NCBI RefSeq assembly: GCF_039822205.1
Contig: NZ_JBAGBW010000002.1
Coordinates: forward strand, 100,387-164,386
DNA length: 64,000 nt
Direction: 5' to 3'
From: Thermodesulfobium sp. 4217-1
Lineage (GTDB): Bacteria; Thermodesulfobiota; Thermodesulfobiia; Thermodesulfobiales; Thermodesulfobiaceae
Shown: in pieces, positions 14,458-39,342 of the stretch
Position numbering within the stretch: position 1 is the stretch's first letter
How the letters are laid out: each line of letters starts with the position of its first letter
Translations under genes and position numbers: made by a program
The notes under the pieces: generated by a model
Told to the model about the DNA's origin: nothing
Databases searched by the model: none
Seen by the model: the letters and a program-made list of their open reading frames with translations, nothing else

Positions 14458-15999
14458 GTGGGTATTTTTGATCCGATTGCCCGAGTCTTTAATAAAAAGA
14501 AAGATAAAATTGAAAACCAGGAAAAAATAGATCCTTGGAAGTATTTCGAGGATGGTTCAAAATATAAGGGAGACTTACTAAATAGCATACCTAATGGATT
14601 TGGCATTCTTATAGAGCCAAATGGCAATAGATATGAAGGTGAGTTCAAGGATGGAAAGATAAACGGTAAGGGGAGGGCCTTCTATGAAGGAGAGGGGTCA
14701 TATGAAGGCGAGTTCAAAGACGGCCTAAGAAATGGCAATGGTGTTTTCAGATTTTTGGACTCCAGTCCTTTGGCTGGCGTCAAGCTGGAAGGCAGATGGG
14801 AAGACGACGAAATGGTTCAAGGGAAAGAATTCTGGCTTGATGGTAGGACATATGAAGGTTCGTGGAAGCGTGGCAAAAAATTCGGTAGGGGAGTCTTTAG
14901 GTGGCCCAATGGGAGCATTTACGAAGGAGAATATAAAGACGACCATTTTTGCGGGAGGGGGATATATATATGGTCAAATGGCGATAAATATGAAGGAGAA
15001 TGGAAAGAAGACAAGTGGGAAGGTCAGGGAGTATTTACCTCATCGACTGGCGATAGGTATGAGGGGTATTTCAAAGATGGAATGAAAAATGGATATGGGA
15101 CTATGTACTACCATAATGCAACTAAATATGAAGGTTTATGGAAGAATGATTTATATGAAGGCAGGGGCAAGTTTTATTATAAAAATGGCGATAAATATGA
15201 AGGAGAGTGGAAAGAGAGCAAAAGATGCGGCGCGGGGAAGCTATTTTATTCGAGCGGCATTGTTTTTGAAGGACAATTTGACTCTGACAAGATTGTAGGT
15301 GGCGGCATTGTTTACTTTGATGGCAAAGCCTATGAGGTTGAATTTGTAAATGGTAGGTTTGTCGGTAAGGAGACAATTTTTTGGCCTGATGGAAGGGTTT
15401 ATTTCGGTGAGATAAAAGACAATATGATGCACGGTAAGGGTTCATTTCAGTGGACCAATAAGAGTAAATTTATTGGAGAATTTAGAGATGATCAATTTTA
15501 TGGCAAGGGAAAGATGATCTTATCCGATGGTTTAGAATGCGATGGCGAATGGAGGGATGGGAAGTTCTATAGTACTATAATTTTGAAAAATTTAGATGGA
15601 AGAAAATATGAAGGCGTATTCGAAGAAGGCGAGTTTAAAGGAAATGGTGTCCTAACATGGCCAAATGGGGATAGATATGAGGGCGAGTGTAAAGATGGTA
15701 AAAGGCACGGCAAAGGTAAGTTTGTAACCAATAGGGGAGATGTCTACGACGGAGAATGGAAATTCGATAAGAGACACGGTTTTGGAGAATTTTTTGCTAC
15801 TAACAAAAACCATTATGTAGGCGAATGGGACTCAGATTTTTGGCACGGCAAAGGTGTCTTAGAGCATTCAAACGGCGATAGATATGATGGCGAATGGGAC
15901 AAGTCAAAAAGACACGGTTTTGGTACAATGGTCTACGCTAATGGCAAAATTGATAAGGGATATTGGTTTGACGGAGTTTTTAAGGGTTCAAAAAAATAA
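14458..15999 (+). CDS. MORN-repeat protein with about 20 repeats
   Basis: Almost the whole 513-residue protein from about residue 38 is tandem MORN repeats of roughly 23 residues, with a YEGEWKDGKRHGKGxF-type consensus; I count about 20 plus a degenerate last one. Repeats near 270-320 and 370 are the most diverged. There is no signal peptide or membrane helix; the N-terminus (MGIFDPIARVFNKKKDK) is basic and amphipathic. Start GTG at 14458 with GGAGG 6 nt upstream. MORN arrays form elongated beta structures that bind membranes or proteins. Bacterial examples are common but rarely characterised, and no linked kinase or lipase domain is seen here. Confidence 0.88.
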   Translation: MGIFDPIARVFNKKKDKIENQEKIDPWKYFEDGSKYKGDLLNSIPNGFGILIEPNGNRYEGEFKDGKINGKGRAFYEGEGSYEGEFKDGLRNGNGVFRFLDSSPLAGVKLEGRWEDDEMVQGKEFWLDGRTYEGSWKRGKKFGRGVFRWPNGSIYEGEYKDDHFCGRGIYIWSNGDKYEGEWKEDKWEGQGVFTSSTGDRYEGYFKDGMKNGYGTMYYHNATKYEGLWKNDLYEGRGKFYYKNGDKYEGEWKESKRCGAGKLFYSSGIVFEGQFDSDKIVGGGIVYFDGKAYEVEFVNGRFVGKETIFWPDGRVYFGEIKDNMMHGKGSFQWTNKSKFIGEFRDDQFYGKGKMILSDGLECDGEWRDGKFYSTIILKNLDGRKYEGVFEEGEFKGNGVLTWPNGDRYEGECKDGKRHGKGKFVTNRGDVYDGEWKFDKRHGFGEFFATNKNHYVGEWDSDFWHGKGVLEHSNGDRYDGEWDKSKRHGFGTMVYANGKIDKGYWFDGVFKGSKK

Positions 16000-16115
16000 T
16001 TTAAAGTTGTCTAATATTAATTTCTGACTTAGCCAAAAGCATAGCGCAAGTTTTTAAATTTTGAGGGTTTAAAAATTTTGTTTTTTTTGTTATTATCTTA
16101 TAAGAGGTGATTTTA

Positions 16116-17315
16116 TTGAAAAAATTGTTTATTGCTCTTTCAATGTTATTTTTTATTTTCTCAACAAGTTGTTTTTCCTATGCAGATGAGAGTGCTATGG
16201 TCAAAGGCAATATAGATTTCGGAATAAATTTAATGAATGAGATAAGAACTCATGAATTCGATAACAACGTTATTTTTTCACCGACTGGTCTGGGCCAATC
16301 CCTAAGCGCTCTTTCGAATGGTGCTGCAGGTTCTACTCTTGATCAGATAAATCTTGTACAGGGGCTTAATGGATATAGTGAATCTGATATAAATTCCTTT
16401 TGGAAGAAGACTGTAAATCCAAAACCCTATGAATATAACAAAAAAATGTTTATCTATACCAGGTCTTCTCTTTGGGTTCAAAATGGCTATACCTTTAGTC
16501 CCGATTTTATGACAAAGATAACATCTTTCTACCCAGGTTTCGACCTTACTTATATAAATTTTTCTGACAAATATACACCATCTGCAATAAACGGTTGGGT
16601 TAAATCTACTACTGATCGCCAGGTTACAAACATCATTAGCAAAAAGGATGTCGACAAAGACACCATAATGGATTTGATAAACGTTACTTACGCAAAGCTT
16701 GCCTGGAAAAATGAATTCCCAAAAAATCTTACTAAAAAGGGTGATTTTTATCTCTCGAACGGTAAGACCACTAAGGCTCTTTATATGAAGACATCTGGCA
16801 ATTTTGACTACTATGAGAATAATTTCTTTCAAGCTGTAAAAGTCGATTTGGCAGATCCTAATTTGGAAGCGGTATTTTTCCTTCCAAAGGGCACCAAGAC
16901 TCTTATGAACATCTACAGGAATATGAACGGTGAAAATTATTTTGATTGGTCTTCGAAATTCCAGAAAAAATCATTAGATCTTATTCTACCAAAAATGGAT
17001 CTTGAATATAAGAAATCCTTTATAACAGAATTCAAGGGAATTGGTGTCGGCTCACCTTTCAACCAAAATGATGCTGACTTTAAGAGAATGTTTAACGTTG
17101 CTAACTTTTCTTTTGTGTCAAACGAAATTTCTGACAACTTTCTAAAAGTTGATGAAAACGGCATAAATAAAACTGTTTTTGACAAAAGTATTAAAGACAA
17201 CGTGAATTTTGATCACCCGTTTCTGATGGTCATAGTGGACAAAACTACAAATGCCTGGATATTGGTAGCTTCTATTGAGAATCCCCATCCTGATGAATGG
17301 CTTGAAATTTTATAG
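16116..17315 (+). CDS. Secreted serpin with atypical reactive-centre loop
   Basis: A serpin-fold protein of about 399 residues. TTG at 16116 is preferred over GTG at 16107 because the GTG lies inside the GAGGTG ribosome site; it gives a signal peptide starting MKKLFIALSMLFF and ending near SYA-DE. Serpin hallmarks are NVIFSPTGLGQSLSALSNGAAGSTLDQI-type helix B-C sequence (shortened here), VTYAKLAWKNEF, KVDENGINKT before the loop and FDHPFLMVIVD after it, and a C-terminal VASIENPH. The loop between the E-N-G hinge and FDHPF is about six residues shorter than in alpha-1-antitrypsin. The hinge after Gly is INKTVFD instead of small residues, so classical suicide inhibition is doubtful. Confidence 0.88.
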   Translation: MKKLFIALSMLFFIFSTSCFSYADESAMVKGNIDFGINLMNEIRTHEFDNNVIFSPTGLGQSLSALSNGAAGSTLDQINLVQGLNGYSESDINSFWKKTVNPKPYEYNKKMFIYTRSSLWVQNGYTFSPDFMTKITSFYPGFDLTYINFSDKYTPSAINGWVKSTTDRQVTNIISKKDVDKDTIMDLINVTYAKLAWKNEFPKNLTKKGDFYLSNGKTTKALYMKTSGNFDYYENNFFQAVKVDLADPNLEAVFFLPKGTKTLMNIYRNMNGENYFDWSSKFQKKSLDLILPKMDLEYKKSFITEFKGIGVGSPFNQNDADFKRMFNVANFSFVSNEISDNFLKVDENGINKTVFDKSIKDNVNFDHPFLMVIVDKTTNAWILVASIENPHPDEWLEIL

Positions 17316-34701: not shown

Positions 34702-35319
34702 ATGAAAAGAACTTTTTTTATTTTTATTTTGTTATTGTTAATGATGCCGTATGCCTTTGCTCAAAATGAGACGCCAGTGGGTGCTTCAAAAATATTGGAT
34801 GCAAACATAAGCGTAGCTAAGGACTTAAAGATTGTAGTTGATGGCAAGGAAGTAAAGAGCGATGTCCCTCCCGTGGTCAGATACGGTTTGGTTTATGTCC
34901 CCGTTAGATTTGTATCTGAGGCAATGAATGCAACTGTGACCTGGGATGAGCAGCATAGAATTGTTAAGGTTTCCTTAGATGGCAAAAGCATAGAATTTTT
35001 CATAGAAAGCTCTCTTGTAAATGTTAATAGTAAAGACGAAAAGATGCTTGCTCCTGCATTTATCTACCAAGACAGAACTATGGTGCCGCTAGAGCTAACT
35101 GCACTAAATTTAGGTGCAAGCGTCGAAAAGGGTAACGGTACAATAAACATTGGCTTAAGTAAAAATCAACAAGCTCAAACAAAGACTCCAAGCGGCGTGT
35201 CCCTTAATATGCCTAACCCTCCAGTAATCGAGTACGGGATTCCGTTACTTTGGTTTATTGGATTGTTGTTTTTATTTTTTACGATGTTCAAAGAATGGTT
35301 AAAAAATAAAAATTCTTAA
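34702..35319 (+). CDS. Membrane-anchored protein with copper-amine-oxidase N-terminal (stalk) domain
   Basis: A 205-residue protein. A signal peptide (MKRTFFIFILLLLMMPYAFA) leads to a copper amine oxidase N-terminal-like fold, recognised by the repeated pattern VDGKEVKSDVPPVVRYGLVY, VPVRFVSEAMNATVTWD and TMVPLELTALNLGAS. This small domain binds cell-wall or protein partners and is not catalytic. A single transmembrane helix near the end (IPLLWFIGLLFLFFTMF) and a basic tail (KEWLKNKNS) give periplasmic domain plus C-terminal anchor. It heads a gene set with ExbB/ExbD-like proteins. Specific function unknown. Confidence 0.75.
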   Translation: MKRTFFIFILLLLMMPYAFAQNETPVGASKILDANISVAKDLKIVVDGKEVKSDVPPVVRYGLVYVPVRFVSEAMNATVTWDEQHRIVKVSLDGKSIEFFIESSLVNVNSKDEKMLAPAFIYQDRTMVPLELTALNLGASVEKGNGTINIGLSKNQQAQTKTPSGVSLNMPNPPVIEYGIPLLWFIGLLFLFFTMFKEWLKNKNS

Positions 35320-35395
35320 AAATATTAATTTATCGTTGTTTTCTGTTAAAATTTTAATATTATAAAATTAATTGATGAAAGGTGAAATTCAAAGA

Positions 35396-35797
35396 ATGAA
35401 AGAAGGAAGCTTAAACGCCAAGAGGTCGGGCTTGACAGATTTTATTGAGGCAAGAATCGATCTGGTAATGATATTGTTTTTGCTTTTAATTGTGGCCCCG
35501 TTAGTTTATTTTGTGGCAAGAAGTACTGTTTGGGCTGCGATTGTTCCTGTGGGGGCTGCTTGGGCGGGTCTTATCTCTAAAGAAATTCCGCAGGAAAAAC
35601 TTATTACAATGGGCGGAGTAGCTCAAGGCTTAGGTCTTGTTGTAACTCTTTTTGGTTTGGGTCAGGTTATTGGTCCTGCTATTGCTGCTCACAATGTTGA
35701 GATGGTAGGTTATGGCGTTTCTATCAAGATTGAGGCGACAATTACTGGTCTTTTGATATCGGTAATTTTGTCGGCTGTTTCGGCAAGACTTTCATAA
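35396..35797 (+). CDS. Minimal ExbB/TolQ/MotA-like membrane protein (putative ion channel subunit)
   Basis: About 133 residues with three predicted membrane helices. Helix 1 is LVMILFLLLIVAPLVYFVA. The second (GLGLVVTLFGLGQVIG) and third (IKIEATITGLLISVILSAVSA) match the ExbB/TolQ/MotA pattern of a Gly/Thr-rich helix (GLxxTxxGL) followed by a helix with T-x-x-G-L, which line the proton or sodium path in stator complexes. The large cytoplasmic domain of ExbB and MotA is absent. ATG at 35396 is preferred (AAAGGTG 10 nt upstream) over TTG 35372. It is 1 nt from the ExbD-like gene. The homology is inferred from pattern and neighbour. Confidence 0.6.
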   Translation: MKEGSLNAKRSGLTDFIEARIDLVMILFLLLIVAPLVYFVARSTVWAAIVPVGAAWAGLISKEIPQEKLITMGGVAQGLGLVVTLFGLGQVIGPAIAAHNVEMVGYGVSIKIEATITGLLISVILSAVSARLS

Positions 35798-35798
35798 A

Positions 35799-36191
35799 AT
35801 GGCTTCTCCAAAGAGGCGCATCACCTTTCTTATGCCATTTATTGACTTTGCGTTTATGTTGGTAATTGTATTTGTAGCCCTGTTGTCTATTGCGTATTTT
35901 AAACCGCAGGAAGTTTCGTCAAATAATCTTGAACAGCAGCTCCAACAAAGTCAGGCAATGGTTTCTGAGCTAGTAAAAGAAAATAATGTACTTAGAAGTA
36001 AGTTACCAGCAAATGAACAAAATGTTTCTCAGAATCAAAATCAGCTTTCGCAAAATGAAAGACAAGGGCTTTTATCGCAGATTTCTCAGTTACAAGGAAG
36101 GGTTTCTGAGCTTCAAGCTAAAAATGAGGCTCTTCAAAAAGAACTGAAGGGAAAATTTGGATCAAGTGAATATATTGACATTAGAAAATAA
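35799..36191 (+). CDS. ExbD/TolR/MotB-like protein with coiled-coil periplasmic region
   Basis: A 130-residue protein: a short basic cytoplasmic N-terminus (MASPKRRITF), one transmembrane helix (PFIDFAFMLVIVFVALLSIA) and about 95 periplasmic residues. The helix starts with F-I-D, matching the ExbD/TolR signature in which the Asp carries the translocated proton. The periplasmic part is not the ExbD/TolR fold; it is rich in Gln, Asn, Leu and Glu with heptad spacing (two stretches, about 42-65 and 88-117), predicting coiled coil. It follows the ExbB-like gene directly, as in exbBD and motAB pairs. Confidence 0.62.
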   Translation: MASPKRRITFLMPFIDFAFMLVIVFVALLSIAYFKPQEVSSNNLEQQLQQSQAMVSELVKENNVLRSKLPANEQNVSQNQNQLSQNERQGLLSQISQLQGRVSELQAKNEALQKELKGKFGSSEYIDIRK

Positions 36192-36263
36192 CTATTTTGG
36201 GGAGTATAAGATATCTTAAAGTGTAAAGGGTTTAAAAATAACAAAATATGTCAAATTAATAGT

Positions 36264-36941
36264 TTGCTAATTTTTAGAAAGATTTTCTTTCTTTTATTTT
36301 TTGCTAACTTTTTATTTGTTTCTTTGTCATTAGTTAATTTTCTACCCTTTCACAGAGCAGCATATGCTGATGTTGTAAACTTATCACAAGAAATTGTCCA
36401 GATCTGGGACGCAAAAGCAAACGACCTTTCATATAAGTATTTTTATACATTTGCAAGGGGTAACCTGCCTAAACTGAAGTCACTTTCTGAAGAAGACTCT
36501 GTAAAGGCTATGTACATTCTGGGACACGCGCAGGATGTGCCAAATGAGCTTTTTTCCGCATATACTAACGCAGAGCATAGACTGAAGGATGAATCACTTC
36601 CTATTGATAATCCAGACTTTGAAAAGGCTTTGAACGACAAAGTTGATAAAAGAATGCTTCACTTTCTCGATATTAGGGATGCATTAGAAAGGGTAACATA
36701 TTTTCCAGATCTTTATAACGTTAAAGAGACGAGTATCTATGGCTTAGATTTTTTGCCGCTACAGGTTAGGATGATAAGATTAGCGTATTCACAGATAGAA
36801 AAAATGAATATGGGCGTAGATCAGGCTCAGCAGTATTATCTCTTGACCCTTTTAGATCAAGATCCACCACCGGATTTCGAATCTTATAAGACCTTTATCG
36901 ATAATTTTTTTAAAAAACTTAGTAAGGTATATTTGATGTGA
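36264..36941 (+). CDS. Secreted alpha-helical protein of unknown family
   Basis: No family recognised. From TTG at 36264 the protein has 225 residues and a strong signal peptide (MLIFRKIFFLLFFANFLF, cleavage near AYA-DV). The mature part is charged and mainly helical, with no cysteines. The TTG has no ribosome site. GGGGAG at 36199-36204 is instead spaced 8 nt from an in-frame ATC at 36213, which would add 17 residues to the signal-peptide n-region; the true start is unresolved. It ends in a GTGA overlap with the next gene, so it belongs to the ExbB/ExbD-like cluster. Confidence 0.6.
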   Translation: MLIFRKIFFLLFFANFLFVSLSLVNFLPFHRAAYADVVNLSQEIVQIWDAKANDLSYKYFYTFARGNLPKLKSLSEEDSVKAMYILGHAQDVPNELFSAYTNAEHRLKDESLPIDNPDFEKALNDKVDKRMLHFLDIRDALERVTYFPDLYNVKETSIYGLDFLPLQVRMIRLAYSQIEKMNMGVDQAQQYYLLTLLDQDPPPDFESYKTFIDNFFKKLSKVYLM

Positions 36942-37477
36942 ATATAAACTTGATGGATTTTGAAAAATTCAATATTAAGATTTTTGGCATATTGCTTTTT
37001 TTAACTCTAATATGTTTTACTTTGATCCCACAAAACTTTGCAAATGCAGATCCAGAAGACAACGTGGTCTTTAGGACACAAAGCGGTATAGTAGTAGTTT
37101 TTGGTACTGCTAAAGAATTGTATTCTTTGGAGGATGCTTACAAGAATGATTCTGTAAAGATTGACAACGTTTATGACTGGATCAAAAAGAATTATCCAGG
37201 ACTTAGGTTGGAGAGATATAACTTATTTATGTCATATAAATTTGGTAAGTGGGGCTTGGATTTAAGGCTCAGAGAGGCTGAGGTAATGGGGATAATTCCA
37301 ACTATTGAGGGACTTTCTATCAGCGATTCGAAGACTGTCCTGGAAAAATCTGGTTTTGAATTATTAAATAGCCTGGAGCAAATTCCAGTAAAAAAACGGG
37401 CTGTGTTTCTTGAGGGGACATCATCTAACGACAATGTACACATTTTCTTTGAAGGGTTTATTTATCAGGAGCCGTGA
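36938..37477 (+). CDS. Secreted protein of unknown family
   Basis: A 179-residue protein that I cannot assign. A signal sequence follows a short n-region (FNIKIFGILLFLTLICFTLI, cleavage near ANA-DP). The mature domain of about 135 residues is of mixed alpha/beta character, with VVFRTQSGIVVVFGTAKEL and LRLREAEVMGIIP. It begins and ends with GTGA overlaps, so its translation is coupled to both neighbours. Context (stator-like pair upstream, beta-barrel downstream) places it in the periplasm of the same system. Confidence 0.6.
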   Translation: MNINLMDFEKFNIKIFGILLFLTLICFTLIPQNFANADPEDNVVFRTQSGIVVVFGTAKELYSLEDAYKNDSVKIDNVYDWIKKNYPGLRLERYNLFMSYKFGKWGLDLRLREAEVMGIIPTIEGLSISDSKTVLEKSGFELLNSLEQIPVKKRAVFLEGTSSNDNVHIFFEGFIYQEP

Positions 37478-39342
37478 AATTTAATATAAATCTTAATAAA
37501 AAAATAATTTGTAAAAACACAAACAATAATATTTTTGATTTTGTAGTTTTTAAAGAGAGACTGTATCAACTGCGTTTATTTTTGTCAAATAATAGGGAAA
37601 GCATCTTAAAATCGTTTTCTTTATCAAAATCGAAAATTTTTACTTCTAAAAAGAGTATTTTTACATGTGCTCTTTTCTTCCTTGCTATCAGCGCTTGTAT
37701 CTCGAGCAACTTTTCTTATGCCAATGAAAGTATGGTTATGGATACAAACAGCGCAAAAAGTGGTCAAATTCTTATGATTGATGGAAAAGTTTTTACATAT
37801 CAAGATAAAGATGCCAAATCAAATATTACGAAAACTGTAAAAATTGGAAATGAGACAATTGATATAACCTATAAGGATATGCAAAAGCCAGGCAAGAGCT
37901 TTATGGTACCAGTTGGAGTTACAGATAAAGCGCTTGCAGAAGGTGCAAAAGTTCCTGTCTTAATGGCTGATGGAAAAATTGAATATGTAAATATTCCAAA
38001 ACAAAAGGATACATTGTTTCCAAATACTATATATATTCCTGTTGCAGGGGCAGGACAGATTGGCAGCACGCCCGGCAAGCTGGTCTTAGGAGTTGTCCCT
38101 ATAATTACTAAAAGGTTAAATATTACCTGGTCTGATACTGCAGATCAAGGTCTGGTAATTAATTATGACTATTCTGGACAGGTTGGTGGTTCGATATATG
38201 ACACCACGAATAGACTTCACAAACAAGACTATTCTTTTTGGGCAAACTTTAACAATACGCATATAAGCGATCAATACGTTCTTGGAAAGGCCGATCCCAC
38301 TGTGGGATATATTGAACAGCATGTCCCAATCAAGTCTTATAAGGGAGATCTTTCTAAGATAGGCAATGATGTGATTACAAATATTTCTTCTGATATTAGG
38401 TTGGACTATAGCAAATCGAGAGACAGAAGAGGTTTGATTGGGGCCAACTTAGATTGGGATACGAAGAATGCTCATTATGAATGGGGCTACTTTGATAGCA
38501 TTATGTTCACAAAGCCTCACTTTGCATGGCGATGGGATCTTTATAAGTCAACAGATTTGTACAACCCTGAATATCTCGGTTTTTATGGAAGGTTGGATAA
38601 CTTCGACTTTACTTCACAAAGAGGAAGTGTGAGCAGTTTTTCTTCAAATACAGGGTCTTTTACCGGCGGTTTTGAAAAAATAGGTGCAATGGTAGAAATG
38701 GATAACTTTATAAAGAATACATATTTAAGAATTGGCAGCATTCACCTGGATCCAAACGACGACTTTTATATGAGGGCAGATAGACATCTTAATACCAATC
38801 TTGAATATGAAACGACTATAGGTAGGCCAGTAATACTCGGAGTTAGCTCAAATAGGTTTGGCGGCTATGCATACTCTTCATACTATACTGTGGGCAGAAA
38901 CTCGTGGATTAATTTGAGACTGGATCTAGATTATTATATTGGGAATAATTGGATGATTCACTTTAGGGGTCTTGATGACAATCTGAGAACTGGAGGTCAG
39001 ACTGTCAACGCTTTTTGGGATACGAGAAATATTTATCTTGTAAAGTATGCCGATGCTCTAAACAAAAAAGATATCATTAACAGACTGGGAGTTGACTATA
39101 TTTTTTCAGAGATAGAATTTTCAAGGAGTGAGTCTGGGGCTCCTTATGACACAAAGTATTACTTTGGATTTTCAAAAACTATTCCAATACCTTATCCATG
39201 GATAAGGATGAGTGAAGGTTTTAGATTTACAATTGGTATGGCATCTACCCCAATAGAGTTTTATATTATTAATCAAAAAAATGATAATGGTAATGGTAGA
39301 AGTTGGTCATTTGGGGCAACGCTGAGCATATTGTCCTTTTAA
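37474..39342 (+). CDS. Outer-membrane beta-barrel protein
   Basis: A 622-residue protein. An unusually long basic n-region of about 60 residues precedes the hydrophobic signal core (IFTCALFFLAISACISS, cleavage near SYA-NE). Residues about 85-210 form a soluble beta-rich N-terminal domain. From about 215 to the end there are alternating aromatic beta-strands typical of a large barrel, and the last residues LSILSF end in Phe, the usual BAM-recognition C-terminus. GTG start overlaps the preceding stop (GTGA), and the stop overlaps coaE (TAATG). Ligand or transport substrate unknown. Confidence 0.72.
   Translation: MKFNINLNKKIICKNTNNNIFDFVVFKERLYQLRLFLSNNRESILKSFSLSKSKIFTSKKSIFTCALFFLAISACISSNFSYANESMVMDTNSAKSGQILMIDGKVFTYQDKDAKSNITKTVKIGNETIDITYKDMQKPGKSFMVPVGVTDKALAEGAKVPVLMADGKIEYVNIPKQKDTLFPNTIYIPVAGAGQIGSTPGKLVLGVVPIITKRLNITWSDTADQGLVINYDYSGQVGGSIYDTTNRLHKQDYSFWANFNNTHISDQYVLGKADPTVGYIEQHVPIKSYKGDLSKIGNDVITNISSDIRLDYSKSRDRRGLIGANLDWDTKNAHYEWGYFDSIMFTKPHFAWRWDLYKSTDLYNPEYLGFYGRLDNFDFTSQRGSVSSFSSNTGSFTGGFEKIGAMVEMDNFIKNTYLRIGSIHLDPNDDFYMRADRHLNTNLEYETTIGRPVILGVSSNRFGGYAYSSYYTVGRNSWINLRLDLDYYIGNNWMIHFRGLDDNLRTGGQTVNAFWDTRNIYLVKYADALNKKDIINRLGVDYIFSEIEFSRSESGAPYDTKYYFGFSKTIPIPYPWIRMSEGFRFTIGMASTPIEFYIINQKNDNGNGRSWSFGATLSILSF

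Follow-up and report, generated by a model that had tools for sequence, protein, structure and literature searches.

What is the task of the six genes, designated A to F here, that lie on the forward strand between guaA and coaE in Thermodesulfobium sp. 4217-1, and could they encode a machine that works on the outer membrane? A preliminary description of the window (the whole 64,000-nt stretch of DNA analysed) read them as an ion-driven machine acting on or through an outer-membrane beta-barrel. Weak but specific profile similarities of B and C, together with gene co-occurrence, speak for that reading, while the ion drive and the action via F are what we infer; an ion-driven machine working through F is plausible.

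Organization and conservation of the gene run

All six open reading frames of the preliminary description are present. The tight packing ascribed to them holds for B and C, which are 1 nt apart, for the GTGA overlaps of D with E and of E with F, and for the TAATG junction of F and coaE, but A and B are separated by 76 nt, and C and D by 72 nt. The order of the run between guaA and coaE is identical in the four genomes of the genus (the window genome, G001, G002 and G003), in G002 as far as the contig can be read, since it ends inside F. The six proteins share 70-98% amino-acid identity with those of the three other genomes. The host genome is 2.0 Mb in size, and the genus, covered by the four genomes compared, is isolated, with no closer relatives among the genomes searched.

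As described earlier, the run contains no TonB, Tol, Pal or flagellar gene. Ton and flagellar systems are encoded elsewhere in the genome, where the flagellar MotA gene adjoins fliM and a canonical ExbB-ExbD-TonB set is found near a TonB-receptor-like ORF. Besides these two motors, B and C would therefore represent a third, divergent pair. Upstream of the run, the window carries genes for a PfkB-family kinase, a cytidylyltransferase-like protein, a glycosyltransferase and a DegT aminotransferase, and we read the first two as putative halves of hldE. LptA- and LptF/G-like genes are also present in the genome; at one locus (L070, 5366-8204, reverse strand), the gene next after LptA-like and LptF/G genes encodes a coiled-coil membrane protein, which we take to resemble DUF3084. 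In another part of the window, two genes adjoin rpoB/rpoC: positions 14458-15999 encode a protein with MORN repeats, and positions 16107-17315 a homologue of serpins (Pfam E=9e-66).

Putative motor proteins A, B and C

Gene A (34702..35319) encodes a protein with a signal peptide, a periplasmic Cu_amine_oxidN1 domain at residues 45-148 and a C-terminal transmembrane (TM) segment at about residues 177-197, as judged from Pfam and hydropathy. The domain (E=6.6e-28) and the C-terminal hydrophobic segment bear out its earlier description as a C-terminally anchored copper-amine-oxidase-like protein, and the score of 97.2 bits exceeds the curated cut-off of PF07833.

Gene B (35396..35797) encodes a protein of 133 aa that appears to be a divergent channel subunit of the MotA/TolQ/ExbB kind. 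In agreement with the relationship proposed earlier, its best Pfam match is MotA_ExbB (E=0.064, below the cut-off). No B homologue matches another Pfam family better than this one, and all stay below the cut-off: E values are 0.019-0.064 for the four members in the genus, one of which also matches Ndc1_Nup (E=0.2), and 9e-4 for the best homologue, obtained with the complete A-B fusion protein of G259. In bits, B scores 13.5 and the best homologue 19.4 against the curated PF01618 cut-off of 22.9, which is thus not reached. By profile comparison with hhalign against a set of TolQ, ExbB and MotA sequences, those of E. coli included, residues 63-133 of B align with TM2-TM3 of TolQ over 71 columns, in which T84 and T115 of B fall on T145 and T178 of TolQ. 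The latter are pore threonines that matter in TolQ/ExbB, and their counterparts in B are invariant in seven homologues from both phyla in which B was found. The alignment scores 29.2, compared with 14.3 +/- 2.9 for segment-wise column shuffles (0/400 reach the score), and the reversed B profile still scores 25 versus 29; with a four-sequence profile, one of 300 shuffles reaches the score.

The cytoplasmic domain of PF01618 is absent from B of the window, which has a loop of about eight residues in its place and almost no C-terminal tail. In the hydropathy profile the first two helices are merged into one stretch (residues 13-56). From hydropathy and charge, we read B as a protein whose four TM helices follow the topology of MotA, with a cytoplasmic loop of eight residues. 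A sequence-based PDB search with B yielded nothing useful, and AF2 models built from two-sequence alignments were poor (pLDDT 52 for B and 46 for E).

Gene C (35799..36191) encodes a putative axle of the ExbD/MotB kind, in which below-cut-off Pfam matches, alignment and heptad contrast suggest a TM helix with P-F-I-D16, a periplasmic coiled coil and a C-terminal Y-[IL]-D-[IL]-R motif. The first 45 residues match ExbD (E=0.036) and MotB_plug (E=0.082), both below the cut-off and among the four families listed for this segment; this supports the earlier view of C as ExbD-like, at a PF02472 score of 14.6 bits versus a curated cut-off of 25.4 bits, which is not reached. The F-I-D noticed earlier at the start of the helix was confirmed as well, P-F-I-D being the same as in E. 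coli ExbD, and the TM aspartate D16 is invariant in seven homologues. However, the score stems from the TM region, and the periplasmic fold of ExbD/TolR is absent from C, the remainder of which is heptad-like. Beyond the TM helix, two stretches show heptad periodicity, one at p=0.03 and one at p=0.003, with p=0.08 overall, and the best PDB profile matches of C are coiled coils. The C-terminal motif is kept across both phyla.

Taken on the sequence evidence, the identity of B and C as a motor is well supported, B being a very divergent MotA/TolQ/ExbB member, and it is very likely that A, B and C together form a motor of this superfamily. They would then constitute an inner-membrane, ion-driven motor of the 5:2 kind known from MotAB, ExbBD and TolQR, with B as the channel ring and C as the central axle carrying the membrane aspartate D16. 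A would be part of the ring, which, if B is pentameric, would bear five periplasmic Cu-amine-oxidase-N1 (CuAO-N1) domains, and the C dimer may form an extended coiled coil that presents its conserved C-terminal Y-I-D-I-R peptide. The output of such a motor would be periplasmic because B is almost devoid of a cytoplasmic part. The 5:2 stoichiometry, the ion flow, the contact of C with D-E-F and the cargo of the machine are what we infer.

Proteins D, E and F and their counterparts in a second phylum

The preliminary description regarded D and E as unrecognised secreted proteins, and indeed both have signal-like N-termini and belong to no Pfam family. D (36264..36941) is predicted to be exported or N-terminally anchored, and its start codon is uncertain. 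In G001, no ATG, GTG or TTG start is found upstream of the signal-like region of D (L010, 6301-7020, reverse strand), where the start codon may be atypical. E (36938..37477) is predicted to be exported and carries a conserved motif, G-[IL]-I-P-x-[IVL]-E-G-L...L...G-F.

F (37474..39342) encodes a protein of 622 aa, predicted to be an outer-membrane beta-barrel, in which a long N-terminal extension precedes the signal peptide. The barrel is suggested by modest amphipathic-strand statistics, with 7/500 shuffles reaching the value, and by the C-terminal Phe reported earlier, which is present. The extension ahead of the signal peptide comprises about 60 residues (37474-37720) and is partly conserved in the genus. 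F matched no Pfam family, and sequence-based PDB searches with E and F gave nothing useful. LptD was considered as an identity for F, in which no OstA-like domain was matched; the LptD barrel domain PF04453 gave no match to F or to any other protein of the genus, but this model also misses most control diderms. The sharing of one gene run by a motor and a predicted barrel might be seen as a sign of Ton-like import, in which A-B-C would open F as an energised channel for uptake. This is quite improbable, considering that the Pfam search matched neither TonB_dep_Rec nor a plug in F, that the run lacks a TonB gene and that the genome has its own ExbB-ExbD-TonB-receptor locus elsewhere.

Outside the genus, only one other small phylum, of which seven genomes were compared, was found to have clear homologues of five of the proteins (A, B, C, E and F), and the similarity of D is marginal. 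A profile search of 290 genomes with F returned two distant homologues, both in this phylum. E is homologous to the E of the other phylum (hhalign E=7e-7; 0/200 shuffles), and D has a counterpart by position before E (score 21 versus 13.4 +/- 2.4; one of 200 shuffles). The order at the second-phylum F locus is an LptD/LptC-like gene, D, E, F, E2, an ELM1-like gene and a PorV-like gene, with further glycosyltransferases in several genomes; the gene adjoining E-F is LptC/LptD_N-like, and the PorV, GT and ICMT labels are our own readings, to be taken as putative. E2, downstream of F, is another protein resembling E and carries an ILEI domain (L024, 8069-9094; L025, 8219-9283).

The B homologues of this phylum, found by a B profile search, are encoded at a locus apart from E-F. 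In six genomes, B is the C-terminal part of a protein beginning with CuAO-N1, i.e. an A-B fusion (65-73 bits, above the PF07833 cut-off), and the CuAO-N1 domain is therefore tied to the channel ring. C lies directly 3' of the fusion in all five genomes with readable downstream sequence. F is present in 8/385 genomes by profile search, and B (E<=0.001) in all of these and no others apart from five weak matches; these counts, made without a control gene family, represent two lineages and not eight independent events. Weak B matches in G364, G278, G339 and G251 are MFS transporters by ORF reading, and those in G129, G078, G354 and G178 were not resolved to a gene.

The co-occurrence of the six genes in relatives, which had been proposed as a check, thus takes two forms: A-F stand together in the genus, and in the second phylum they are two unlinked modules. 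Judged from gene order and co-occurrence, A-B-C probably works with D-E-F. It is unlikely that the two modules are independent, with A-B-C serving as a motor, channel or sensor that has nothing to do with D-E-F, and that shared ancestry or joint transfer accounts for their linkage and co-occurrence. Such independence would agree with the lack of linkage in the second phylum and with the restriction to two lineages, but A-B-C adjoins D-E-F in each of the four genus members, and a second-phylum genome (G290, 78% complete) lacks both B and F.

Possible role and comparison with known motors

Motors of the 5:2 kind are known to drive flagella, the Ton and Tol systems, gliding and T9SS. B and C share with ExbBD/TolQR the TM2-TM3 pattern with both pore threonines, the P-F-I-D axle helix and an adjacent gene pair. 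However, B has no large cytoplasmic domain, the coiled coil of C replaces the ExbD periplasmic fold, the ring subunit bears a periplasmic CuAO-N1 domain, and TonB and TolA are missing from the run. The hydropathy of B, which fits four TM helices as in MotA, and the axle aspartate and weak MotB_plug match of C recall the MotAB stator; in contrast to the latter, B lacks the torque-generating cytoplasmic domain and C the OmpA-like peptidoglycan-binding domain, and the MotA of the genome itself lies beside fliM. Compared from the literature, Agl-Glt/Nfs of Myxococcus (PMC3858216) also has a stator-like motor that works together with proteins of the envelope on a carbohydrate polymer of the cell surface, with a gene set different from A-F. 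GldLM of Bacteroidota (PMC9389320) has, by analogy only, a long periplasmic axle and a proposed ring-side anchoring, but its partners differ, as it works with T9SS. In the collection of papers searched, none mentions both CuAO-N1 and ExbB.

The motor might also be a Tol-Pal-like device, in which A-B-C pulls an outer-membrane complex of F with D/E and thereby holds or constricts the outer membrane, without cargo transport. A canonical TolQ was not found, as the matches of a MotA_ExbB search of the genome were limited to B and the flagellar and Ton motors, and Tol-Pal has been reported from Gracilicutes only (PMC12204202), both of which speak for such a device. We nevertheless regard it as unlikely, since no Pal-, TolB- or TolA-like gene is in the run and D-E-F lies near glycan/LPS genes in both groups.

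We favour a motor that drives a D-E-F outer-membrane complex, the most likely task of which would be to assemble or export a glycan or glycolipid of the envelope. The glycan/LPS role, suggested by gene context in both groups, is the weakest step and is put forward tentatively, and the cargo is a guess. For the full reading, a complete A-B-C motor acting on D-E-F in envelope glycan/LPS biogenesis, we consider the chances to be even. That A-F represents an undescribed class of trans-envelope machine in two phyla, with a nearly cytoplasm-less 5:2 motor, a crown of five CuAO-N1 domains, a coiled-coil drive shaft and a dedicated outer-membrane barrel complex for surface glycan/LPS assembly, is possible and rather doubtful.

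The A-F set may be a hitherto undescribed means of driving processes at the outer membrane. If so, it could explain how the outer membrane is energised in a diderm whose genome yielded no canonical TolQ, and the question of ring-versus-axle anchoring would become testable. A motor whose ring bears periplasmic domains, with hardly any cytoplasmic part and with an outer-membrane barrel of its own, would then be a new architecture among 5:2 motors.
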